NCBI GenBank assembly: GCA_001839685.1
Contig: MLAK01000617.1
Coordinates: 1 to 64,000 of the forward strand
Reading direction: 5' to 3'
Source of the DNA: Tritrichomonas foetus
Lineage: Eukaryota > Parabasalia > Tritrichomonadida > Tritrichomonadidae
DNA: 64,000 nt
This document shows, piece by piece, positions 8,210-29,450 of this stretch. Each line of letters starts with the position of its first letter. Within the stretch, counting starts at the first letter, position 1. A program made the position numbers and the translations under genes. The notes beneath the pieces were generated by a model. That model was not told the DNA's origin. It saw nothing but the letters and a program-made list of their open reading frames with translations, and ran no database searches.

Positions 8210-8293
8210 TAATCCTAATTTAATAATCCTAATTTGGTAATCCTAATCAAGTAATCATAATTTAATAATCCTAATTAAGTAGTCCTAATTTTG
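8210..8293. repeat. 14-bp tandem repeat, six imperfect copies (TAATCCTAATTTAA-type)
   Basis: Six consecutive 14-base units starting TAATCCTAAT (variants TAATCATAAT, TAGTCCTAAT) lie between the convergent TM2 and ankyrin genes. The copies differ mainly in their last four bases. Confidence 0.85.
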
Positions 8294-8368: not shown

Positions 8369-10926
8369 TTAGGTCCTCACTGACCTTGCCATTTTGGGAA
8401 GCTTTAAGCGGATGAGATTAGCAATTTCTGTAAGGTTGCTTCTAGATGCGGCAATAAATGGCGTTTGATGAATAAAAGATAAAAAACTCCACAATAAGTT
8501 ATAAAATAAAAACTCTATCTGCTAATTCGACATCAATCATTGGATGTTTCAGGAGTATTTTAACAATAAGTCTGTTTCCATTCTTGGCAGCTAATAATAG
8601 TGGTGTAACGCCATTATTATCACATTGGTTAATATCAATATCTGGATGAGTCATGAGTAATTTAACAAATTCGACTTTTTTCCGCGATACAGCCCAATGC
8701 AAAGCAGTTTGATAAATATTAAAAATAAACACCAAGCGGATTTGCAGAGCTCACATCAATATTAGGATCTTGTAATAAAACTCTAGCTGTTTCAATTTTA
8801 TCTCTATCAACACACCATTGAAGAGGTGTGATTTGTGAGTCATCTTTTGCATTAACATTAATGTCTGGATGAGCCAGAATTAATTTCAAAATTGATGGAT
8901 ATCCTCGATCAGCGGAGTCATGAAGGGCAGTTCGATAAATTAGAAAAATTTAACTCCAAGAACTCTTCTTTTATTGATGTCAATTAGGGGGTGACTTACT
9001 AAAGCTTTCACAGCTTCATATCGACCACGACTTGCTGCAGAATGAAGAGGAGTCCATCCAAGTCCATCTTCTATATTAACATCAACATCAGGACATTCTA
9101 AAAGAACTTTAACAACTTCATGAAAACCAGCATCAGCAGCTCTTTCAAGTGGTGTTTGATGCAAATTAAAGAAAAACACCTGCATTGTTTTTCTTGTTGA
9201 CATTAATATCATATGAATTTAATAAGATTTTGACAGCTGCAACTCGATTATTCATTGCTGCATAATGAAGAGGTGTTCTAAAAGCAAATATAAAAACTCC
9301 ATAAACAAATAGAAAAACTGAATTAATAAAAAAATAAAACTTTTTGTGCTAGTAGATATCTTTTCTTTTCTTTTTCAATAAGTTCAATTTGCTGCCTTGG
9401 CATAACCTTCCCTTTTGGAAGATTTAGTCTAAATATTGGGTCATTAGGTTTTCCATCGGCATGATTAACATCAATTTCGGTAAAAGCAATTAAATAATTC
9501 AGTATTGGAGCAAATCCACATTCTGCTGCAATATGAAGTGGAGTAATTCCATTCAAATCTGCAACATTAGATTCAGTATTTTCATTTTCAATGAAAAATG
9601 AGACAAGCTTATCGGAGCCACTTGCAATAGCATGATGAAGAGGTGTTCTATTAAAAATATGATATAAATTCCTGCAAAGTTTTTCTTATTCAAATCATTA
9701 GTTAGCATTAATAAAGCTTTACACATTGTTATGTGACCATGAAAAGCCGCTGCATGTAAAGCAGTATTACCATTTTTGAATCCTTCATTTATTTTGCTTC
9801 CAGTTTGGTATAAATGTAAGAAAATCTTGAGATTATTGGAAATTATAGCTTTTTGCATTGTATTAATAAATGCTTTATCTTTAATTGAAACTTTGTCGAT
9901 TTTTTGGGCAAATAATTTGAAATATAATTCGTTGTGATGAAATTGGATTGCCCAATGAAGAGCTTGACTAATTGTTATATTTAATGAGAATAAATAATTG
10001 TTAATGATTTGATTACAACTAATTGCTAAGTAATCACCAAGTGTGAGACCATTCTCATCAGTAAAATCAATTTTTGCATGATGCTGTAATAAAAATCTAA
10101 AACATCTTGAAGCTCCACATAATGCGCTATATTGTAAAAGTGTTGGTCTTTGCTGTTGATATTTGGATCTTGCAATGATAGATGATTCAATATGTTGATT
10201 AATATCAAAAAATGAGCCTTTTGCATTATGTGATAAATAAGATAATTGATCATGCTCAATAATTGAAGCAACTGAGAAAGGATCTAAATCGTAATTTCTG
10301 CGATTTTTTAAAATGATCCAATCATTTTCTTTTAACGTTTCTAGTTCTTCCATATAAGCATGAAAAACTCTTTGTAAAAATGGATTTTCGTCTTTAAATT
10401 CAAATAATTTAAAAAGGCTATGATAAAAATCTTCATTGCAATCTTCAAGCTCTGGTCCAAAAAGACAGAAAAGCCATTTTTTGGATTTTATCGAAATAAT
10501 TGTATCAGGTGTATAAAGACATGCTGCTGCAGCAAATTCTCTGAAAGTAAGAACTTCTTTATTCATCAACTGATATAAAAAGTATGGGACTGCAGTATGC
10601 TCTGGGAATGGATTAGGCAAGGAAAGAATGTTAATTATCATTCTTAATAAAAATGGTCTTAGTTCTGTCAGCTTATAAAATTCATTATTATATTCCAATA
10701 ATTTTTTGACAAACATTGCCATTGTTGCAATTTGATTCGGTCTAATTTTAATTGTGTACATTATCGCGTTAATTAAATGTGGCAATTCTTGAAGATTATT
10801 TGTAAATTTTGATGATAATATTTCAGGGAGGATTGTCATCATATTTTTCTGTGTCATGTTCGCGATTTGATCAACCAATTGAGCGTATGGAGCAAGTTTC
10901 AAGACTGCTTCTTCGTTTATTTCCAT
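8369..10926 (-). CDS. Ankyrin-repeat protein of the trichomonad DUF3447-like type, interrupted by nine 18-20 nt inserts
   Basis: The gene starts at the ATG at 10926 (MEINEEAVLKLAPYAQLVDQ). Its helical N-terminal region of about 250 residues is typical of trichomonad ankyrin proteins, and about eleven ankyrin repeats follow down to KMARSVRT and a TAA at 8369. Read as plain DNA it breaks into five or six frames. Every break sits in a T-rich insert of 18-20 nt placed just after the conserved Gly of an ankyrin repeat, before x-T-P/A-L-H, or a codon or two before that Gly. The inserts are at 9650-9669, 9322-9340, 9301-9318, 9280-9297, 9159-9177, 8935-8954, 8712-8730, 8494-8513 and 8468-8487. Omitting them removes 173 nt and leaves 2385 nt, that is 794 codons and a stop in one frame, with normal repeat spacing at the junctions. 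Ankyrin repeats bind proteins; partners are unknown. If the inserts are not removed, it is a pseudogene. Confidence 0.75.
8468..8513 (-). other. Two tiny T-rich inserts (20 nt each) flanking a two-codon piece, last ankyrin repeat
   Basis: On the minus strand the order is GAT AGA, insert GTTTTTATTTTATAACTTAT (8513-8494), TGT GGA, insert GTTTTTTATCTTTTATTCAT (8487-8468), CAA ACG. Joining the flanks gives ADRCGQTPFIAA, which aligns residue for residue with QCDNNGVTPLLLAA of the preceding repeat. The exact edges can slide by a base or two. Confidence 0.6.
8712..8730 (-). other. Tiny T-rich insert (19 nt) in an ankyrin repeat
   Basis: The minus strand reads CTT GGT, then GTTTATTTTTAATATTTAT, then CAA ACT. 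Without it the repeat reads NPLGQTALHWA. With it the frame closes at a TAA inside the insert. Confidence 0.6.
8935..8954 (-). other. Tiny T-rich insert (20 nt) in an ankyrin repeat
   Basis: The minus strand reads CTT GGA, then GTTAAATTTTTCTAATTTAT, then CGA ACT. Without it the repeat reads RVLGRTALHDSA. With it translation stops at a TAA within the insert. Confidence 0.6.
9159..9177 (-). other. Tiny T-rich insert (19 nt) in an ankyrin repeat
   Basis: The minus strand reads GCA GGT, then GTTTTTCTTTAATTTGCAT, then CAA ACA. Without it the repeat reads NNAGQTPLERAA. With it translation stops at a TAA within the insert. Confidence 0.6.
9280..9340 (-). other. Cluster of three tiny T-rich inserts (19, 18 and 18 nt) separated by single codons
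   Basis: After AAA (9343-9341) the minus strand has GTTTTATTTTTTTATTAAT, codon TCA, GTTTTTCTATTTGTTTAT, codon GGA, GTTTTTATATTTGCTTTT, then AGA ACA. Removing all three gives AQKSGRTPLHYAA. The split into three units is my reading; one longer insert plus an 18 nt one would also restore the frame. Confidence 0.5.
9650..9669 (-). other. Tiny AT-rich insert (20 nt) in an ankyrin repeat
   Basis: The minus strand reads GCA GGA, then ATTTATATCATATTTTTAAT, then AGA ACA. Without it the repeat reads NFAGRTPLHHA. This is the only insert starting ATT rather than GTT and the only frame-shifting one without a stop, so the unspliced frame continues 38 codons into noise. Confidence 0.6.
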
Positions 10927-11437
10927 TTTTCCTCAGTTTTATTATCTCGTTAAATTGAGAAGATTTTATTTATAACGTACAGACTTTTTTCAGAAATATT
11001 GTTATTCCTCTATTCAAAGAGTATTTGATTAATCTTTAGATATTTTCGTATAATAATTTATTATAATTTATTTTAGATACTTCCACATCGTTTATATTTC
11101 CAATTTTATCGGATAAAAGACAATAAATCTATATTGAAACAATACACATTTCTATTGAACTAATTGAAAAAGTTTCGTTTTCAAAAACATGGATTATCTT
11201 GTGTTGTTATTCCTTTACCAAGACGTTTATGAATCAACAAGAAAGGAAATTGTCTGGAAAATATAAATATTGCTTTGAAATTCCTAATTCAATCATTTTC
11301 TCACAAATTTTTATGTCAGTATGAATGAATTGATAATTCTCAAAAATCTTCTTCATTATTCATATGAATTTTATCTCAAAAGATATAAATGTAATATATA
11401 TAAACCCATTTTTTTTTTTTTTTTTTTTTTCATGACT
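10927..11437. other. Intergenic region with a 22-T run
   Basis: AT-rich spacer between two minus-strand genes. It holds a T-run at 11409-11430, just 3' of the cyclase stop. No ORF or RNA gene is supported. Confidence 0.5.
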
Positions 11438-14400
11438 TTATTTACGCGTAATTAAATAAGTAACAGCTATTGAATCTTTCAATTCTATATTTCCTCTTTC
11501 TTTTATAGCGAAATTACCACCATAAATTAATTCATAAACACTTCTCGAAACATGAACATTCATTGACACTCCATGATGTTCCATCTGCTGAGCCATATTA
11601 ATTGCAGGACCAAGAATTTCGAATGTTGGTTTACCTATTCCTAAAACACCAGCAACAATTGGACCGCCAGTATTTATCCCAACTCGAATTTCTAATTTTT
11701 CATTAACTTCTTTATTTAAAATAAGAACTGAATCGATTGCATCTAAGCCAAAATTAACTACTTCTTTAGCATGTTCAGATGGTTGATTTATTTCAGAAAA
11801 GACACCACCAGCAGCCATATAACAATCACCAATACATTTAATTTTCGTCATTGTTCGATACATACTTGCACATGCATCAAATTTCTTGAATAAATTATTC
11901 AATGTCATCATTACTTTGTCTGCTGGAAGTGATCCACACCATGGGGTAAATGATACTATATCCATAAATACTATCGTTGCTGATTGTACTGCAAAAGAAA
12001 TATTCTTTTCGCCATTTTTAACACGTTCAACAAGATTAGCAGGTAATATTGAAGATAAAAGTTTATCATTTTTGGCTTTTTCTGCGTTAATTAAAGTATT
12101 ATATCGAACAGTTTGTGTCATATCACGTAATATTAATACCTGTTTTGTGTTAATAAGAATTTCAGTGGCTTCAAGGTGAACAGCAGTTCCATCTTTTAAT
12201 GAAAGTTGAATAAGATCTTTTTCTTTACTAATATCCGACACATACTTCTTTAATGACTTCCCGATAATTTCTTCTTTTTGTATATCGAATATTCGGCTTA
12301 ATGAATTATTTACACTTTCTATTATTCCTTCTGCATTTGTTACAATAACAATGTCTGGAAGATGTTCAACGATTGTCTCAAAGAAGGTGTTGTTTCTTGT
12401 TGTATTATCTAATTTATTCTTTCTGAAATCACCACTTAATACTCTCATAATTTTTGTATTTTGCAATAATGCTTTAACAGGAGCATTCATCAAAAACTTT
12501 AAAACATCCTTAATATGTTTTTCAATTCGGATGGTTTGGATTACTAAAATGCATTCCATGCAAAAACAAACCATTATCATGATGATCAAATAAGGTATCA
12601 CGTCAGATTCCATCGCTATGAGATCATCTTTTAGTGTATTAGTAATACTTCTCGTCATTGGGTCAAATAAAGCATCATACAATGGAAAAATTAATAATGA
12701 CCAAATTGTATCAAAATAGGGGTCGTAATATAGGGATGTATTAGTAGAAATAGCATATGGTTCAACTCTAGAACTCCATAATTGATGAATCATTATGAAA
12801 CTCTCATCCGGACTCATACACTTTGTTGCCTCTAATAGTGTAGTAGAAATTATATTCGGATCTACGCATGGCCTTTTCAGATTGGCCTCTTTTATCGCAT
12901 TAGCGAAACCAGAAAATGAGTATTCACCTTTGGGCGAGCCACCAAAACGAGCTCTATGATAAAAACCCACACTTGATTTCAACCATGAGCGGAAATAATC
13001 AACAAGTTTTTCTTTTGTAACAGCTTGAATACCACCTTCAGGATTCCCGTGTCTGACCATGGCAGCAACGGCTAATTCTGATCCAAAAGTGAAGGCAATT
13101 GCCCCTTGAATATAGTTGATATGCTGACTATTTGTCTTGAGATTTACACTCATTCTTTTCACAAGGGTGCAAAGTGTAATATTGCATCCAATATGCATAC
13201 ACATCATTATAATTGAACTGATAATAATTAAAATGGAATCTATAGCTTTGATAGATGAACTACTACTTCCTGTAGCGAATATTTTCAAGATATTATCTTC
13301 TTGTTTATTCAATTCGGAATTTATATTGGAATGAGAACCTTCATTATCTTTCTTTAAAACTCTTAAATTTTCTGTTAATTGAGATACAACATTTTTGGGC
13401 AATGCAGTCAAGCATCGATATGTTTGGTCTTTGGCGTTATTAATAGCAGCAATTTCTCCGATTAAAGTAATTGAATAAACAAAAATAGCGAGAACACAAA
13501 TTACTTTCATGGAAGTACCGAGTATATTTTGATAATACTTATCATTTGTTTCCGCATACTGTGAAAATTCTGATAAAGCATAGTCTAATGCCTGTGCGAT
13601 TGTTGGCAGATTTACTATTCCATTTAAAACTGAAGAGCTATTCATTATACTTGAATTTATCTCCATGGATGTATCAACAACCACATTTTGTAAAGTAATA
13701 AAATCAGCCATAGCAGAAACTAATGAAACATTAGTCGAGAATGGCCGGTTATTAATATAATATGTATAATTTATTACATTATTAAATAGCAACATTTGTG
13801 CATTATCAATATTTAGATCACCAACTGCAAATCCACGAAATCGCTCAACATTTTGCAATATAGTAGATGTTTCTTGTGCTAGAAACTTTAATTGCTTTAC
13901 AGTTTCCCAAGTTGATCCGACAGATATAGGAGGCATTTCACTAGTAGAATTTATCTTTCTATTAGCAATCCCTAACCTTTCATACACAGACTCTAAATTC
14001 CATAAAACCAATTGAAATGCATTTGTTCTAAGAGTTGAAATATAATACAAATGACTCAGCGAACTAGTAATATAAGAAACAAACATACCTATTAATAATG
14101 TACACCCAATTGCAGGAATTGTAAAGACGAAAATAAAAATTATAATATTGAATATAATAGTATTTCTTGTTGATGGAATCACCATATGCTTAATTTGGTC
14201 ACCCAATATATTGGTTTCTTCATCTTCTTTATTTTCTTCTTCAATGTCTAAATCAAATGTAGATGTTGTACTAGTAATGAGAGATAATGTAGATTCCTTG
14301 GACACTTTAAGCTTTGATGGTAGATTTTTGAAAGTATCAAAGCCAAATTCACGAGCTTGGTCTCTATTTACCATTATTCCACGTTGTAATAATCTTGTTT

Positions 14401-16042
14401 TTTCATTCATTTCAGCAGCAGTTTTCTTATCAGCTTTTAACTCACGACAAAACCGAGCATAATTACGGGTTACAAATCTATTATTTGGATATGTTCTCAT
14501 AATATGCATTAATTCGACTTCAGTTTTATAGATTTCAGCCAATGCCTTTTTTGTCGCTTGTTCCATATCACTAATATTACTCTGAATTGCCAAATCCCAT
14601 ACATATCTAAGCTTGTGCTTGCATGACGACAAATGCTTTGTTAGAGAATTTAATTTTATCTTTAAATCTGGGCTTAAATTTTGTTCTCTTTCTCTAACTA
14701 GTAAAACAGCACTCTCTCGAACTATTTTAGCGGCACGACCTTTGACATTATTTGCTCTAATCATTTTACATATCCATTCAAGAGTCGAAATTTCTTCTGG
14801 ATAAATTACAATGAATTTAGAATATACTGCCCATACTAAAGGGCTTTGTGGCCATCTTTCTATACCAAGCTTAAATATTGTCCATTCTGTACAACAAGGA
14901 TGTGCAAAAATGAAACCAGAAACTACAACATTCACATATTGATTAACTGATTTAATTTCTGCTAGACAATCTCTGTTATCATTTATTCGATCAAGTAAAA
15001 TATTATTTCTCAAACGATATCGCGAAAACAACATGTATGTAATAATAGAAGCTATTACATATAAGAGTGTCATCGCAATAAGTAATACCATGTTACCTTT
15101 TTTGCCTAAAAACAACATTAAAGATATAACGAAACACATAACTCCACCGACCTCGCAGACGGCTGCATAAAAAGACGATACATATGTGCTGATAATACCC
15201 CCTTTCATAAAAATAATGAAAATAGAAGCAAAATATATAATAGATGTGACAAATAGAAGAGCTCCTTGAAATCCTTCATTTAAACCTTCTCCTAAAGCTG
15301 TTAAAAAGGTGACAATGACTTGAGAAATAAAAATATAATTCTGTGGCTTTGAGAGAGTCGTTGCCATTGAAGTTGGACGAAACATTAATGATGCCGAAGC
15401 GATCATTACAAAAATCCAAAAATAAATAATAGAAACCAGAAGTGATAATACTGAGACAACAATCACTGATGAAAATTCTTGTTTATGTCCAGCGAGACAT
15501 CTGCTTATTTCGCCTACTGACATTTCAATCGCGATTGGATGCAATAAATATCCCAAAGTTGAAATGTAAATCTGAATAAAATATGGAATGACAATTGGAA
15601 GAGTTGCATTTTTCATAAACACTTTTGCTGACATAATAATCACGAAAACTGCAAAAAGAACAATCAAAATATAGATTATCATAAAAATCAAAAATCCGTC
15701 GTCTCGATTTTTGCTAGGAATCAGAAAAAAGAATGCAGAAATCAAACTTATCGTTGAATAAGACAAATCATCATCTGACCAAAAATTTGAATAACGAGAA
15801 CAAAAACTGGGGCCGATCATTTGAAGTAACCGGAAAATTGTGACAACCAGATGAAGTGCTTTGAAAGATGGCGTAACTGAAAAAACGTATAAAAATAAAT
15901 TGGAGATATCTTTTCTTAATTGTTTTCGAATTGGCCTTTCGATTAATCCGCCGTATTTCTCATCGTGAGTCGAGTTTGACGATAGAGGAGACGCAGCTGA
16001 AGAGGTGATGCATCCTGGATTTCCAATAATCTCCGAAGTCAT
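11438..16042 (-). CDS. Multi-pass membrane receptor with PAS and class III adenylyl cyclase domains
   Basis: The 1534-residue protein starts at the ATG at 16042 (the codon at 16060 is TTG). It has about eight N-terminal membrane helices (to residue 350) and a TmcB-like stretch with PLVWAVYSKFIVIYPEE. Further membrane segments lie near 640, 870, 960 and 1150 around large loops. A PAS domain follows (HLPDIVIVTNAEGIIESVNN, about 1240-1330), then a class III cyclase domain (about 1345-1534). Both metal-binding aspartates are present (D1361 in MDIVSFT, D1406 in IGDCYMA). K1402 is at the adenine-selecting position and E1475 (FEILG) replaces the usual Asp, so the product is probably cAMP. N1482 is kept, but the transition-state Arg four residues later is Q1486. 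Trichomonads have many such proteins; the ligand is unknown. Confidence 0.92.
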   Translation of the reverse strand: MTSEIIGNPGCITSSAASPLSSNSTHDEKYGGLIERPIRKQLRKDISNLFLYVFSVTPSFKALHLVVTIFRLLQMIGPSFCSRYSNFWSDDDLSYSTISLISAFFFLIPSKNRDDGFLIFMIIYILIVLFAVFVIIMSAKVFMKNATLPIVIPYFIQIYISTLGYLLHPIAIEMSVGEISRCLAGHKQEFSSVIVVSVLSLLVSIIYFWIFVMIASASLMFRPTSMATTLSKPQNYIFISQVIVTFLTALGEGLNEGFQGALLFVTSIIYFASIFIIFMKGGIISTYVSSFYAAVCEVGGVMCFVISLMLFLGKKGNMVLLIAMTLLYVIASIITYMLFSRYRLRNNILLDRINDNRDCLAEIKSVNQYVNVVVSGFIFAHPCCTEWTIFKLGIERWPQSPLVWAVYSKFIVIYPEEISTLEWICKMIRANNVKGRAAKIVRESAVLLVREREQNLSPDLKIKLNSLTKHLSSCKHKLRYVWDLAIQSNISDMEQATKKALAEIYKTEVELMHIMRTYPNNRFVTRNYARFCRELKADKKTAAEMNEKTRLLQRGIMVNRDQAREFGFDTFKNLPSKLKVSKESTLSLITSTTSTFDLDIEEENKEDEETNILGDQIKHMVIPSTRNTIIFNIIIFIFVFTIPAIGCTLLIGMFVSYITSSLSHLYYISTLRTNAFQLVLWNLESVYERLGIANRKINSTSEMPPISVGSTWETVKQLKFLAQETSTILQNVERFRGFAVGDLNIDNAQMLLFNNVINYTYYINNRPFSTNVSLVSAMADFITLQNVVVDTSMEINSSIMNSSSVLNGIVNLPTIAQALDYALSEFSQYAETNDKYYQNILGTSMKVICVLAIFVYSITLIGEIAAINNAKDQTYRCLTALPKNVVSQLTENLRVLKKDNEGSHSNINSELNKQEDNILKIFATGSSSSSIKAIDSILIIISSIIMMCMHIGCNITLCTLVKRMSVNLKTNSQHINYIQGAIAFTFGSELAVAAMVRHGNPEGGIQAVTKEKLVDYFRSWLKSSVGFYHRARFGGSPKGEYSFSGFANAIKEANLKRPCVDPNIISTTLLEATKCMSPDESFIMIHQLWSSRVEPYAISTNTSLYYDPYFDTIWSLLIFPLYDALFDPMTRSITNTLKDDLIAMESDVIPYLIIMIMVCFCMECILVIQTIRIEKHIKDVLKFLMNAPVKALLQNTKIMRVLSGDFRKNKLDNTTRNNTFFETIVEHLPDIVIVTNAEGIIESVNNSLSRIFDIQKEEIIGKSLKKYVSDISKEKDLIQLSLKDGTAVHLEATEILINTKQVLILRDMTQTVRYNTLINAEKAKNDKLLSSILPANLVERVKNGEKNISFAVQSATIVFMDIVSFTPWCGSLPADKVMMTLNNLFKKFDACASMYRTMTKIKCIGDCYMAAGGVFSEINQPSEHAKEVVNFGLDAIDSVLILNKEVNEKLEIRVGINTGGPIVAGVLGIGKPTFEILGPAINMAQQMEHHGVSMNVHVSRSVYELIYGGNFAIKERGNIELKDSIAVTYLITRK

Positions 16043-27328: not shown

Positions 27329-29450
27329 ATGAGTAATCCGACTTTTGCAGATGGACCACCCATTGAAGCATCTTCTAGCCAAGAATTAAACAGCCCCAAT
27401 CAAGGTAATATATCACAGCAAGTTTCCGACATGACAAACGGCCTATTGGGTGTTATTGATAATATTTCGTCATCAAAAGAATCGCTTTCGACTAGCAATA
27501 ATCAAAATGAAAATGAAATTGAATGCAAATCCGCTTTGAATCAAAATTCAAACCAAATTGAAAATAAATCAAGCGAAAATCTGGAAAGGAATGAAAACAG
27601 CAATTTCGCGAGTGACGATGGAATAAAACTTCAAGATCCAGTAGGCGCCCCGCCTGACATTTCTCCTCCTCCTCAAAACAACTCTGAATTGAGAGAATTA
27701 GATAATAATAATAATTCCAACAATTCTGGGCAAAATTTGAATGATTATCAATTTGCAACATCCCCTGAAAAAATTGATATTAAAATCACAACAGAAAATG
27801 AAGAAAAAGCTGACATAAGCAGCCAAGAATCTTATGAAAGAAATAAAAATGAAAACAGGGATGATAATGAAGATGATAATATAAATGAAAATAAAGATGA
27901 AAATAGAGATGATAATGAAGATGATAATATAAATGAAAATAGAGATGAAAATATAAACAATGATGATGAGAATATAAATAATAACGAAAATTCGGAAAAT
28001 AAAATGATGAATGCTCATGGAAATGAACATCATAAAAAGCCAAAAGAAGACTCACCAAGAACTCAATTCCGAAAAATGTTTTATGGCACAAACAACCCAA
28101 ACCAAAGACGGGCCAAAACAAGTTTTAAACCACGCCGACATTTCACCGATGACGTAACCGTTTCTCAAGAAACTGTTGAAAAAATGGCTGATGGAATTTT
28201 GAAAGGAAAATCATGTAAAATGACAAATCCTTTCGATGTTGCTGAAGTCATTGATGAGTTGAATTCAAGAAGGATCGATGCATTGGCAAATAATGATTAT
28301 CGTCAAAGCAAAAATATCAAAGATTCAATTGATAACATTCGTTCCAATTTTCGTCAAAGAGACAGAGAACTTTTACATAAAGAAATTGTGTCAAAACTTG
28401 AAGTGAGAAACCAAGAATCAATTGAAATTTTAGAAGAAACAAAAGAGAAGTATTTATTTCCTTTAATTTCTGAGTTTCTTGTTGGATTTTTTTGAAGCTG
28501 GAAAATATATTTGAGTTTTAATTATCTTCTTTCCTTTTTTATGACATTTTTATAGAAAAGGAAATGCTTTAATTTGGAATATCTTAACATTTATTAATAA
28601 TCAAGTTTCTAATTAGCTTCATAATAAAAACAGTATTTGCTTTTGTTGTGACTGACTTCATAAGTTAACTTTGATAAACCTTTGTTTTAAAATTATAGCT
28701 TCATTGAAATTGAACTTGAAACTAGGAATTAATTTTGGTAGATTGTTACTAACACTCAGATGGAAAACCAAACGCCAAGAACTCTCACGAGAACAAAAAG
28801 ATGCATTAATGGAACTCCAAGACCGTCATGAAATAGAGCACAGGCAACTTGAAAAAGAATGGAGCCAACCACATGTCTTACGTAAATTTTCGAAACGTTC
28901 CCCAAATATGCTTCAAAATTTACAAAAGGAAAAATATATGCTTCTTATTGGTGAATATGAAGGAGCTGAACAAATGAAGAAAATTAATGCACAGTTAGAA
29001 AAAGCTGAAACACTTGATCGTAAACAAGAAATGATGAATTCTTTTTTGGCTGCACAATCAAATTTGATTTCTAGACAAAAAAGTGAACTTACCAGGTTAA
29101 TAAGTGAGCAAACTAAAAAGCTTGATTTGTTAAACGAGTTTGAGCGCAAAGATATTGAAGTTAAAGTTAAAAGATTGACGGTTACACAATCTTTTTTGGA
29201 TGAAGAAAAAGATTTTAATAAATTTGTAGCGAAAAAATATAAAAGGCCAGCATCATGTATCGTTCCGAATACAGTTATGGCTTCTAGAGATGCACCACAA
29301 GATCTTCCACCTTTACCACGTGGGAAATTGGTTCCACATACAGTTTCCGATTTACTGGCAGTACGGAAACGTGCAATTGTGACTCCACTTCCACTTCCAC
29401 CATTTGCTGTAAGAAAGTACAAAATTCAAAGAGTTCGTGCATCTCAGTAA
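27329..29450 (+). CDS. Two-exon gene for an acidic, C-terminally coiled-coil protein of unknown function
   Basis: Exon 1 is 27329-28449 and exon 2 is 28760-29450. Joining them gives 1812 nt, 603 residues, with the intron splitting a Lys codon (AA|A) so that EETKE-K-WKTKRQ reads through. Residues 1-240 are low complexity (Ser/Asn/Asp/Glu), including a 16-residue repeat of DDNEDDNINEN type with a 48-bp period near 27860. Residues from about 280 are helical and charged. Exon 2 has long coiled coil (EQKDALMELQDRHEIEHRQL) and a basic, Pro-rich C-terminus (PLPLPPFAVRKYKIQ). I do not recognise a family; a cytoskeletal or trafficking scaffold is plausible but unproven. An annotation from open frames alone would split it into two genes. 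Confidence 0.85.
28450..28759 (+). other. Spliceosomal intron, 310 nt, with trichomonad 3' motif
   Basis: The 5' end is GTATTT and the 3' end is ACTAACACTCAG. The second is one base from the ACTAACACACAG block that carries branch point and acceptor in Trichomonas introns. Removal restores a single frame between two halves of the same coiled-coil protein. The known consensus donor is GTATGT; here the fifth base differs. Confidence 0.88.

Follow-up and report, generated by a model that had tools for sequence, protein, structure and literature searches.

The 64,000-nt stretch of Tritrichomonas foetus DNA analysed here (contig MLAK01000617.1, positions 1 to 64,000; hereafter the window) carries an ankyrin-repeat gene interrupted by nine T-rich inserts of 18–20 nt. 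These inserts belong to a set of elements with conserved ends and length, which occupy frame-preserving places in ankyrin genes and occur in arrays with one codon between neighbours; the window gene itself has not decayed. It is open on both sides of the inserts, which implies that some process removes them or passes over them. Judged from sequence, intron-like removal at the RNA level appears the most likely process, with a probability of roughly 0.55, ahead of translational bypass. The inserts match no known kind of intron.

The gene is read on the minus strand and, when cut at nine sites, yields ten coding pieces (Table 1) of 1257, 309, 3, 3, 102, 204, 204, 198, 6, and 99 nt, every one divisible by three. 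The first-pass annotation, made from the sequence alone, had listed inserts of 20, 19, 18, 18, 19, 20, 19, 20, and 20 nt, and all nine were recovered with exactly these lengths. Its arithmetic was reproduced as well: excision of 173 nt leaves 2385 nt, that is, 795 codons including the stop, with zero internal stops. The end pattern also agrees with the earlier description, as eight inserts start with GTT and one with ATT, all nine have T as the last base, and eight end with AT and one with TT. A Pfam scan of five of the ten coding pieces (1, 2, 6, 7, and 8) recognised ankyrin repeats in all five.

Table 1. Coding pieces and inserts of the ankyrin-repeat gene, in coordinates of the 64,000-nt window.
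Feature	Position	Strand	Remarks
Ankyrin-repeat gene	8369..10926	-	2385 nt in ten coding pieces (794 codons + stop), 173 nt in nine inserts
Coding piece 1 (N-terminal region with the initial ankyrin repeats), 419 codons	9670..10926	-	45.9%/43.1% identity to P0012/P0013; Ank_2 at 323-416
Insert 1, 20 nt, ATT start, AAT end; between Gly of NFAG and RTPLH	9650..9669	-	P0002, P0004, P0005 stop here; P0003 without insert here
Coding piece 2, 103 codons	9341..9649	-	Ankyrin repeats by Pfam
Insert 2, 19 nt, opens three-insert array	9322..9340	-	Frame reading and model alignment
One-codon coding piece TCA (Ser)	9319..9321	-	Ser-Gly also in insert-free P0012 (CSRSGRSPLH) and P0003 (AQRSG)
Insert 3, 18 nt	9301..9318	-	Frame reading and model alignment
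One-codon coding piece GGA, the conserved Gly	9298..9300	-	Frame reading and model alignment
Insert 4, 18 nt, the sole one with TTT end	9280..9297	-	P0003 stops here as RSG-VL
Coding piece 5, 34 codons	9178..9279	-	55.9% identity to both P0012 and P0013
Insert 5, 19 nt, NNAG/QTPLE junction	9159..9177	-	Far relative P0014 readable as interrupted at same site
Coding piece 6, 68 codons	8955..9158	-	Ankyrin repeats by Pfam
Insert 6, 20 nt	8935..8954	-	Frame reading and model alignment
Coding piece 7, 68 codons	8731..8934	-	Ankyrin repeats by Pfam
Insert 7, 19 nt	8712..8730	-	Frame reading and model alignment
Coding piece 8, 66 codons	8514..8711	-	Ankyrin repeats by Pfam
Insert 8, 20 nt, ADR/CG junction	8494..8513	-	Frame reading and model alignment
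Two-codon coding piece Cys-Gly	8488..8493	-	Orthologues read ADKTGQTPF / ADKSGQTPF
Insert 9, 20 nt, G/QTPF junction	8468..8487	-	Frame reading and model alignment
Coding piece 10, 32 codons + stop	8369..8467	-	72.7% identity to P0013 (22 aa)

Orthologues were collected by protein searches with the intact N-terminal open reading frame (ORF) and with one relative, P0003. Two full-length relatives, P0012 (831 aa) and P0013 (778 aa), are insert-free; they were seen as proteins only, and their contigs may be genomic or RNA-derived. Across the nine sites P0012 reads NLGQTPLH, CSRSGRSPLH, NNAGQSPLERAADSG, RRLPGRAPLHDAADRG, SGATPLHWAV, and ADKTGQTPF, and P0013 is similar. Because both proteins read straight through the sites, the insert boundaries are fixed, and the one-codon pieces encoding Ser and Gly are part of the protein. 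Identity to P0012 and P0013 is 46% and 43% before insert 1 and 36%–65% and 51%–76%, respectively, in the later pieces. The latter equal or exceed piece 1 in similarity in 11 of 12 comparisons (the exception being piece 7 against P0012, 36%), with the proviso that short local alignments lean high. Conservation is thus about equal on the two sides of insert 1, which makes decay of the gene unlikely. The window gene has neither stops or frameshifts outside the inserts nor relaxed conservation, the other loci having been checked in bulk only.

Several relatives end at the sites in question. P0002, P0004, and P0005 (63%–68% identity to the query) stop just past the Gly of site 1, with the tails VLFIK, IYF, and IFFL, while P0003 has no insert at site 1 or at the first two array sites and terminates as RSG-VL at the third. 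At site 5 P0014 (38% identity to P0003) reads NNAG-VFHSFIKHHSKEPQIPAMSL, and the back-translation of this protein sequence fits GTNTTYCAYTCNTTYAT (17 nt) followed by the codons of QTPLERAADSG in another frame. That the relatives share inserts is partly shown by these readings, in which the inserts are putative, as proteins alone were seen and the end of a protein could be the end of a contig. If they correspond to homologous inserts, the inserts would predate the split of these species. No relatives of the window gene were found in viral contigs. Among the four readings offered by the first-pass annotation, ultrashort introns and ribosomal bypass survive, whereas a micro-insertion spreading in a dying gene is contradicted by the identities after the inserts (36%–76%, against 43%–46% before) and by the relatives ending at site 1.

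The size of the inserts was determined in a sequence-blind test, in which the upstream context of good repeat starts was scored with 0 or 10–35 nt omitted and the letters of the insert were ignored. Of the 239 places tested, 90 were normal and 34 were scored as holding an insert. The other 115 matched neither description, and among them are multi-insert arrays as well as normal repeats whose upstream score was weak. The 34 inserts measured 15, 17, 18 (2), 19 (13), 20 (11), 21 (4), and 22 (2) nt; 32 fall within 18–22 nt and none is longer, although up to 35 nt were allowed. They start with R-Y in 31 cases and end with AT in 29 and with AG in none, seven of the 34 lying at places fetched by a pattern that contains TTTAT. 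The earlier remark that several inserts of the window gene cannot be GT-AG elements thus holds for the class as a whole. On the coding strand, 31 of the sequence-blind inserts consist of 64% T and 24% A.

Genome-wide searches covered 63.7 Mb in 1064 contigs, with the reversed pattern as control. The first-pass annotation had proposed to look for inserts before TPLH; in this genome the 3' end of an insert at a repeat start (TTHAT-NNN-T(P/A)LHxA) was matched 121 times (control 0), and the normal repeat start (GGN-NNN-T(P/A)LHxA) 252 times (control 0), as counted, without every match being read. With a narrower x codon the TTHAT form gave 31 matches (control 0) and the Gly form 133 (control 7). 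The 31 matches led to 30 loci, of which L046 and L051 proved on reading not to be ankyrin-like. A stricter two-ended pattern gave three matches (control 1), all within ankyrin genes. The pattern with Trp at x (ATTGGAC...), matched 15 times against 0 in the control, was not counted, as some of its matches may be ordinary Asp-Trp codons, as in L028. When 20 top-ranking loci of the Pfam ankyrin list were inspected, 13 proved to hold at least one consensus insert and eight at least two. With pattern-chosen places excluded and no alignment used, TTHAT within 14 nt upstream of the Thr stands exactly one codon before it in 24 of 53 cases. Seven loci (L044, L049, L058, L060, L015, L017, and L047) contain 8 to 15 consensus inserts each, with two to four in many ankyrin loops; insert densities in the sampled loci are unrepresentative, because about half of these loci were fetched for holding one such place. 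Blastn among the sampled loci, inspected for duplicates showing empty sites, gave no match of at least 120 nt except one place fetched twice (L011 = L048).

To describe the class, an insert model was built from 31 sequence-blind inserts and run on 74 kb of ankyrin DNA, in 62 stretches from 45 loci (44 of them distinct places). A first, weak repeat profile misplaced boundaries and gave 77 scattered calls; it was replaced by a profile built around the Gly. The resulting alignment contains 200 insert calls spread over 36 of the 45 loci. Their lengths, allowed to range over 14–26 nt, peak at 19 and 20 nt, with 159 calls of 18–21 nt; only 12 reach the 23 nt or more of trichomonad introns (23–26 nt), and the others lie within 14–22 nt. 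The Gly/x junction holds 85 calls, the position before the Gly 43, and the codon boundaries further upstream 31, 19, 6, and 5, which leaves 11 elsewhere. In 179 of the 200 calls the insert lies between codons (phase 0). The reverse-complement model, run on the same sequences, distributed its 101 calls over the phases as 36/33/32 (20/8/12 in the 40 best-conforming), so the method does not force phase 0, the profile adding a mild bias towards it. Both ends conform to the consensus in 163 calls (the filter fixes positions +1, +2, and -2), and 156 of these are in phase 0. The remaining seven comprise two that can be set to phase 0 (L021 and L042), two poor matches (both in L024), and three ambiguous cases (L012, L016, and L044). 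Lengths of the 156 consensus inserts are unrestricted modulo three (41/65/50 for 0/1/2).

The arrays follow the same rule. Among 59 gaps shorter than 40 nt between neighbouring inserts, 41 measure 3 nt, six 6 nt, two 9 nt, two 12 nt, and one 27 nt; the seven that are not multiples of three include three that re-reading puts in frame, one poor match, and three ambiguous cases. The 156 consensus inserts form 115 runs, namely 85 single inserts, 21 pairs, seven triplets, and two quadruplets, with 41 one-codon pieces. These encode Gly (12), Ser (6), Asp (5), Asn (4), Gln (3), Lys (3), Leu (2), Arg (2), and Cys, Glu, Thr, and His (1 each), a make-up that is partly circular because the alignment profile favours ankyrin-like residues. 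An alignment-free count found one-codon spacing in 21 cases, against four on the antisense strand and one in the rest of the window. This loose count peaks at a spacing of 3 (21), with lesser values of 11 at 4, 9 at 6, and 9 at 16; the spacing-4 cases, the only ones read, are mostly TTCAT inside TPLH codons or a wrong start. Alternative boundaries were rejected: one base to the left, 11 of the 41 one-codon pieces would become stops, and one base to the right, the Gly is lost. At the commonest place the insert comes after Gly in 60 of 79 cases, and the codons before inserts are varied (Gly, Lys, Ser, Asp, Asn, and others). Codons with initial G are rarer after an insert (3/61) than in insert-free repeats (21/90; p = 0.003). 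No clear position-specific signatures of the inserts were found, the sole exception being a G start in 13 of 13 at the fourth place upstream.

The 5' dinucleotides of the 200 calls, which the model favours, are GT (145), AT (40), GC (8), AC (3), and others (4). The 3' end reads T-T-(T/A/C)-A-T, with G nearly absent from position -3, in the 31 sequence-blind inserts of the model as in the 156 consensus inserts: in the latter, position -3 is T in 53%, A in 23%, C in 22%, and G in 1%, and T occupies -4 in 92% and -5 in 87%. Among inserts that were not chosen by pattern, 49 of 61 end with TTTAT, TTCAT, or TTAAT. The insert ends look like splice sites, in particular acceptors, in which the final G is replaced by U. 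The branch-site/3' block of trichomonad introns, of the ACTAACACACAG type, is absent from the nine inserts of the window gene. The first-pass annotation had set the inserts against this block as used elsewhere in the window; the absence stands, but the exact ACTAACACACAG occurs nowhere else in the window, and the nearest sequence, ACTAACACTCAG at 28748–28759, has one mismatch. The plus-strand ORFs 27329–28495 and 28809–29450 look like one gene with an intron ending in this ACTAACACTCAG, after which one frame is open; no GTATGT donor for this candidate intron was found in 28301–28760.

A connection to canonical introns comes from a single case. The exact 11-mer CTAACACACAG occurs 42 times in the genome (18 in the control), so the introns carrying it are few, and once it is followed by a codon and RTTT. 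At L031:4132–4673 a 542-nt GTATGT...CTAACACACAG intron lies between the TCA and GAC codons of an ankyrin loop. Each of these codons adjoins a mini-insert on its far side, so the intron stands between two mini-inserts and occupies a slot equal to that of the middle element of the three-insert array in the window. The weight of this case rests on the ankyrin frame and the flanking inserts, because a codon plus RTTT alone is expected about once among 42, by a rough estimate. The intron of L031, whose ends are canonical for trichomonads, is longer than any reported from T. vaginalis, where the maximum is 196 nt (PMC12316389).

The surroundings of the window gene can be described briefly. The ribosomal protein uL6 (annotated L6) encoded in the window shares 98% identity with its T. 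foetus counterpart and 59% with that of T. vaginalis. Eighteen other ORFs of at least 150 aa are present, all of them long and open. Between the convergent genes, 8210–8290 holds short, degenerate repeats around TAATCCTAATT, and a run of 22 T lies at 11409–11430, just past the 3' end of the neighbouring minus-strand ORF 11438–16042.

Several known systems invite comparison. Ciliate internal eliminated sequences are likewise short, AT-rich, and precise interruptions of coding DNA, but they are TA-bounded, need a germline nucleus, and are not strand-polar, whereas inserts of the window type are. Introns of Bigelowiella natans are of the GT-AG kind and are not known to be tied to codon boundaries or to a single protein family. 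One-codon arrays are not known from the bypass systems of phage T4 gene 60 or of Magnusiomyces. The 18-nt intron of B. natans, mentioned in PMC12316389, has a length within the range of the inserts. Type B spliceosomal introns of T. vaginalis have 23–26 nt, a poly-T interior, and a tolerant 5' end, and some reside in ankyrin genes (PMC12316389). In that species, the branch-site/3' splice-site motif is kept, the shortest intron has 23 nt, two introns per gene were reported as new, and phases 0/1/2 are found in 25/9/19 cases (PMC12316389). The inserts resemble type B introns in phylum, shortness, T-richness, and ankyrin hosts, but differ in being mostly 18–21 nt long, in the HAT end, in lacking the motif block, in reaching up to 15 consensus calls per locus, and in their near-exclusive phase 0. 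Stentor coeruleus introns of 15–16 nt are AU-rich, with common major-spliceosome 5' and 3' sites and a nearly fixed branch A, at position 10 or 11 (PMC9505925); they are of similar or smaller size, and the inserts, unlike them, have no AG end or fixed A. The nearest cases of translational bypass are T4 gene 60 and the 81 inserts in Magnusiomyces capitatus mitochondria (PMC5009743), which share with our elements short gene-interrupting blocks skipped in decoding but are of phage or mitochondrial origin, with landing codons that are matched in gene 60 and often in Magnusiomyces. In T. musculus 2,500 genes are annotated with introns (PMC11978803), and no gene model of T. foetus KV-1 has more than two exons, the predicted introns there measuring 5–898 bp (PMC11415386). 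The parts of PMC12316389, PMC9505925, PMC11978803, and PMC11415386 at hand contain no description of these elements, and none in Tritrichomonas or in ankyrin genes was found in the accessible portions of the open-licence literature.

In the reading that we favour, the inserts would be a genome-wide class of ultrashort U-rich intron-like elements of about 17–22 nt (5' RY-UUU ... UUHAU 3'), sitting between codons in the loop before x-T-P-L-H of ankyrin repeats. They would leave the transcript before translation, each presumably taken out singly and by the spliceosome or a derivative of it, so that the full ankyrin protein could be made. RNA removal is preferred because the ends are conserved and splice-like in their base preferences, the coding strand is U-rich, and one array slot is taken by an intron. 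A number of observations weigh against it. Among the 200 calls, whose 3' dinucleotides the model favours, 155 end with AT and only eight with the AG of U2-type introns. No fixed branch adenosine is visible in the 156 consensus inserts (A at -6 in 42%), and A at -6 or -7 shows only a weak excess (91 of 156 against 74 ± 5.6 by shuffle). Pattern searches for a short intron with both canonical ends and for a canonical intron directly at xTPLH each gave 0. One-codon pieces between 20-nt elements would be very hard for a spliceosome, and ordinary introns would not be expected to lie almost exclusively in phase 0. Finally, when the ankyrin context is dropped, the two-ended consensus shows no enrichment across the genome (22 matches, 38 in the control), so the class seems confined to ankyrin genes. 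Translation is suggested by the strict codon boundaries, although these could also be inherited from a single founding array that spread by copying from repeat to repeat and afterwards lost some of its elements.

We know of no nuclear precedent for translational bypass, and we regard it as a tentative alternative to RNA removal: the inserts would stay in the mRNA and ribosomes would skip each of them, up to four in a row with one codon decoded in between. The frame agreement is what this predicts (179 of 200 calls at codon boundaries, 156 of 163 consensus-conforming ones), as are inter-insert gaps that are mostly multiples of three (52/59) and lengths free modulo three (41/65/50). Gly before the insert, seen in 60 of 79 cases at the commonest place, recalls the take-off codon GGA of T4 gene 60 (PMC5009743). 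The last triplet of the inserts (TAT, CAT, or AAT) differs from the preceding codon, whereas take-off and landing codons match in gene 60, though several of those in Magnusiomyces do not (same source). Codons before array inserts are varied, and phase 0 can also be explained by the copying of one founding array among repeats. Somewhat less probable, and in our view unlikely, is that nothing removes the inserts, which would truncate the proteins and make the ankyrin genes pseudogenes or producers of short forms. A stop in the upstream frame does lie within 47 of the 156 consensus inserts, and identity to P0012 is lower in piece 7 (36%) than in piece 1 (46%). Yet the pieces after the inserts are at least as similar to the orthologues as piece 1 in 11 of 12 comparisons, and if the breaks at site 1 are homologous, insert 1 predates a split at 63%–68% identity while the next 375 codons are free of stops and, the other eight inserts aside, of frame breaks. 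Counted in bulk, the 6,737 coding codons of the 25 alignments that hold two or more inserts are interrupted by 147 consensus inserts and 33 other breaks. Of the 41 one-codon pieces, none is a stop and three encode hydrophobic residues; 21 of them stand before the last insert, and 12 of these are Gly, a make-up towards which the profile leans.

The two other explanations are much harder to sustain. Treating each array as one intron from the first GT to the last element, with non-coding one-codon pieces, would avoid one-codon exons, and the array of the window allows a GT...AG of roughly 60 nt to be traced. It is very improbable nonetheless, as the conserved Gly would be deleted, the codons within arrays fit the ankyrin consensus and match RSG/SRSG of the orthologues, 85 of the 115 runs contain just one insert, and an AG end is absent from all 34 sequence-blind inserts. 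Least probable of all are DNA-level elements that an expressed copy of the gene would lose much as ciliates lose their internal eliminated sequences. Presence and absence at the same sites among relatives and the conserved ends would suit them, but it is the coding strand that is rich in T (64%, with 24% A, in 31 of the 34 sequence-blind inserts), Blastn among the sampled loci revealed no second copy of any sampled gene (at least 120 nt), and we know of no second somatic nucleus in parabasalids.

Well over 100 U-rich RY...HAU elements of 17–22 nt at codon boundaries, in some loops behind each codon, that are removed or skipped one by one and so leave coding pieces of a single codon, quite probably represent an undescribed nuclear mechanism. 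This would be either GU-AU splicing of ~20-nt elements without a branch-site motif or multi-site ribosome bypass on nuclear mRNA. If removal takes place at the RNA level, the elements fall below the usual signal requirements of introns, and tandem one-codon exons challenge the workings of the spliceosome. If ribosomes skip them, this would be the first large nuclear bypass set known to us. Either way, annotation based on GT-AG introns would call such ankyrin genes broken or truncated.

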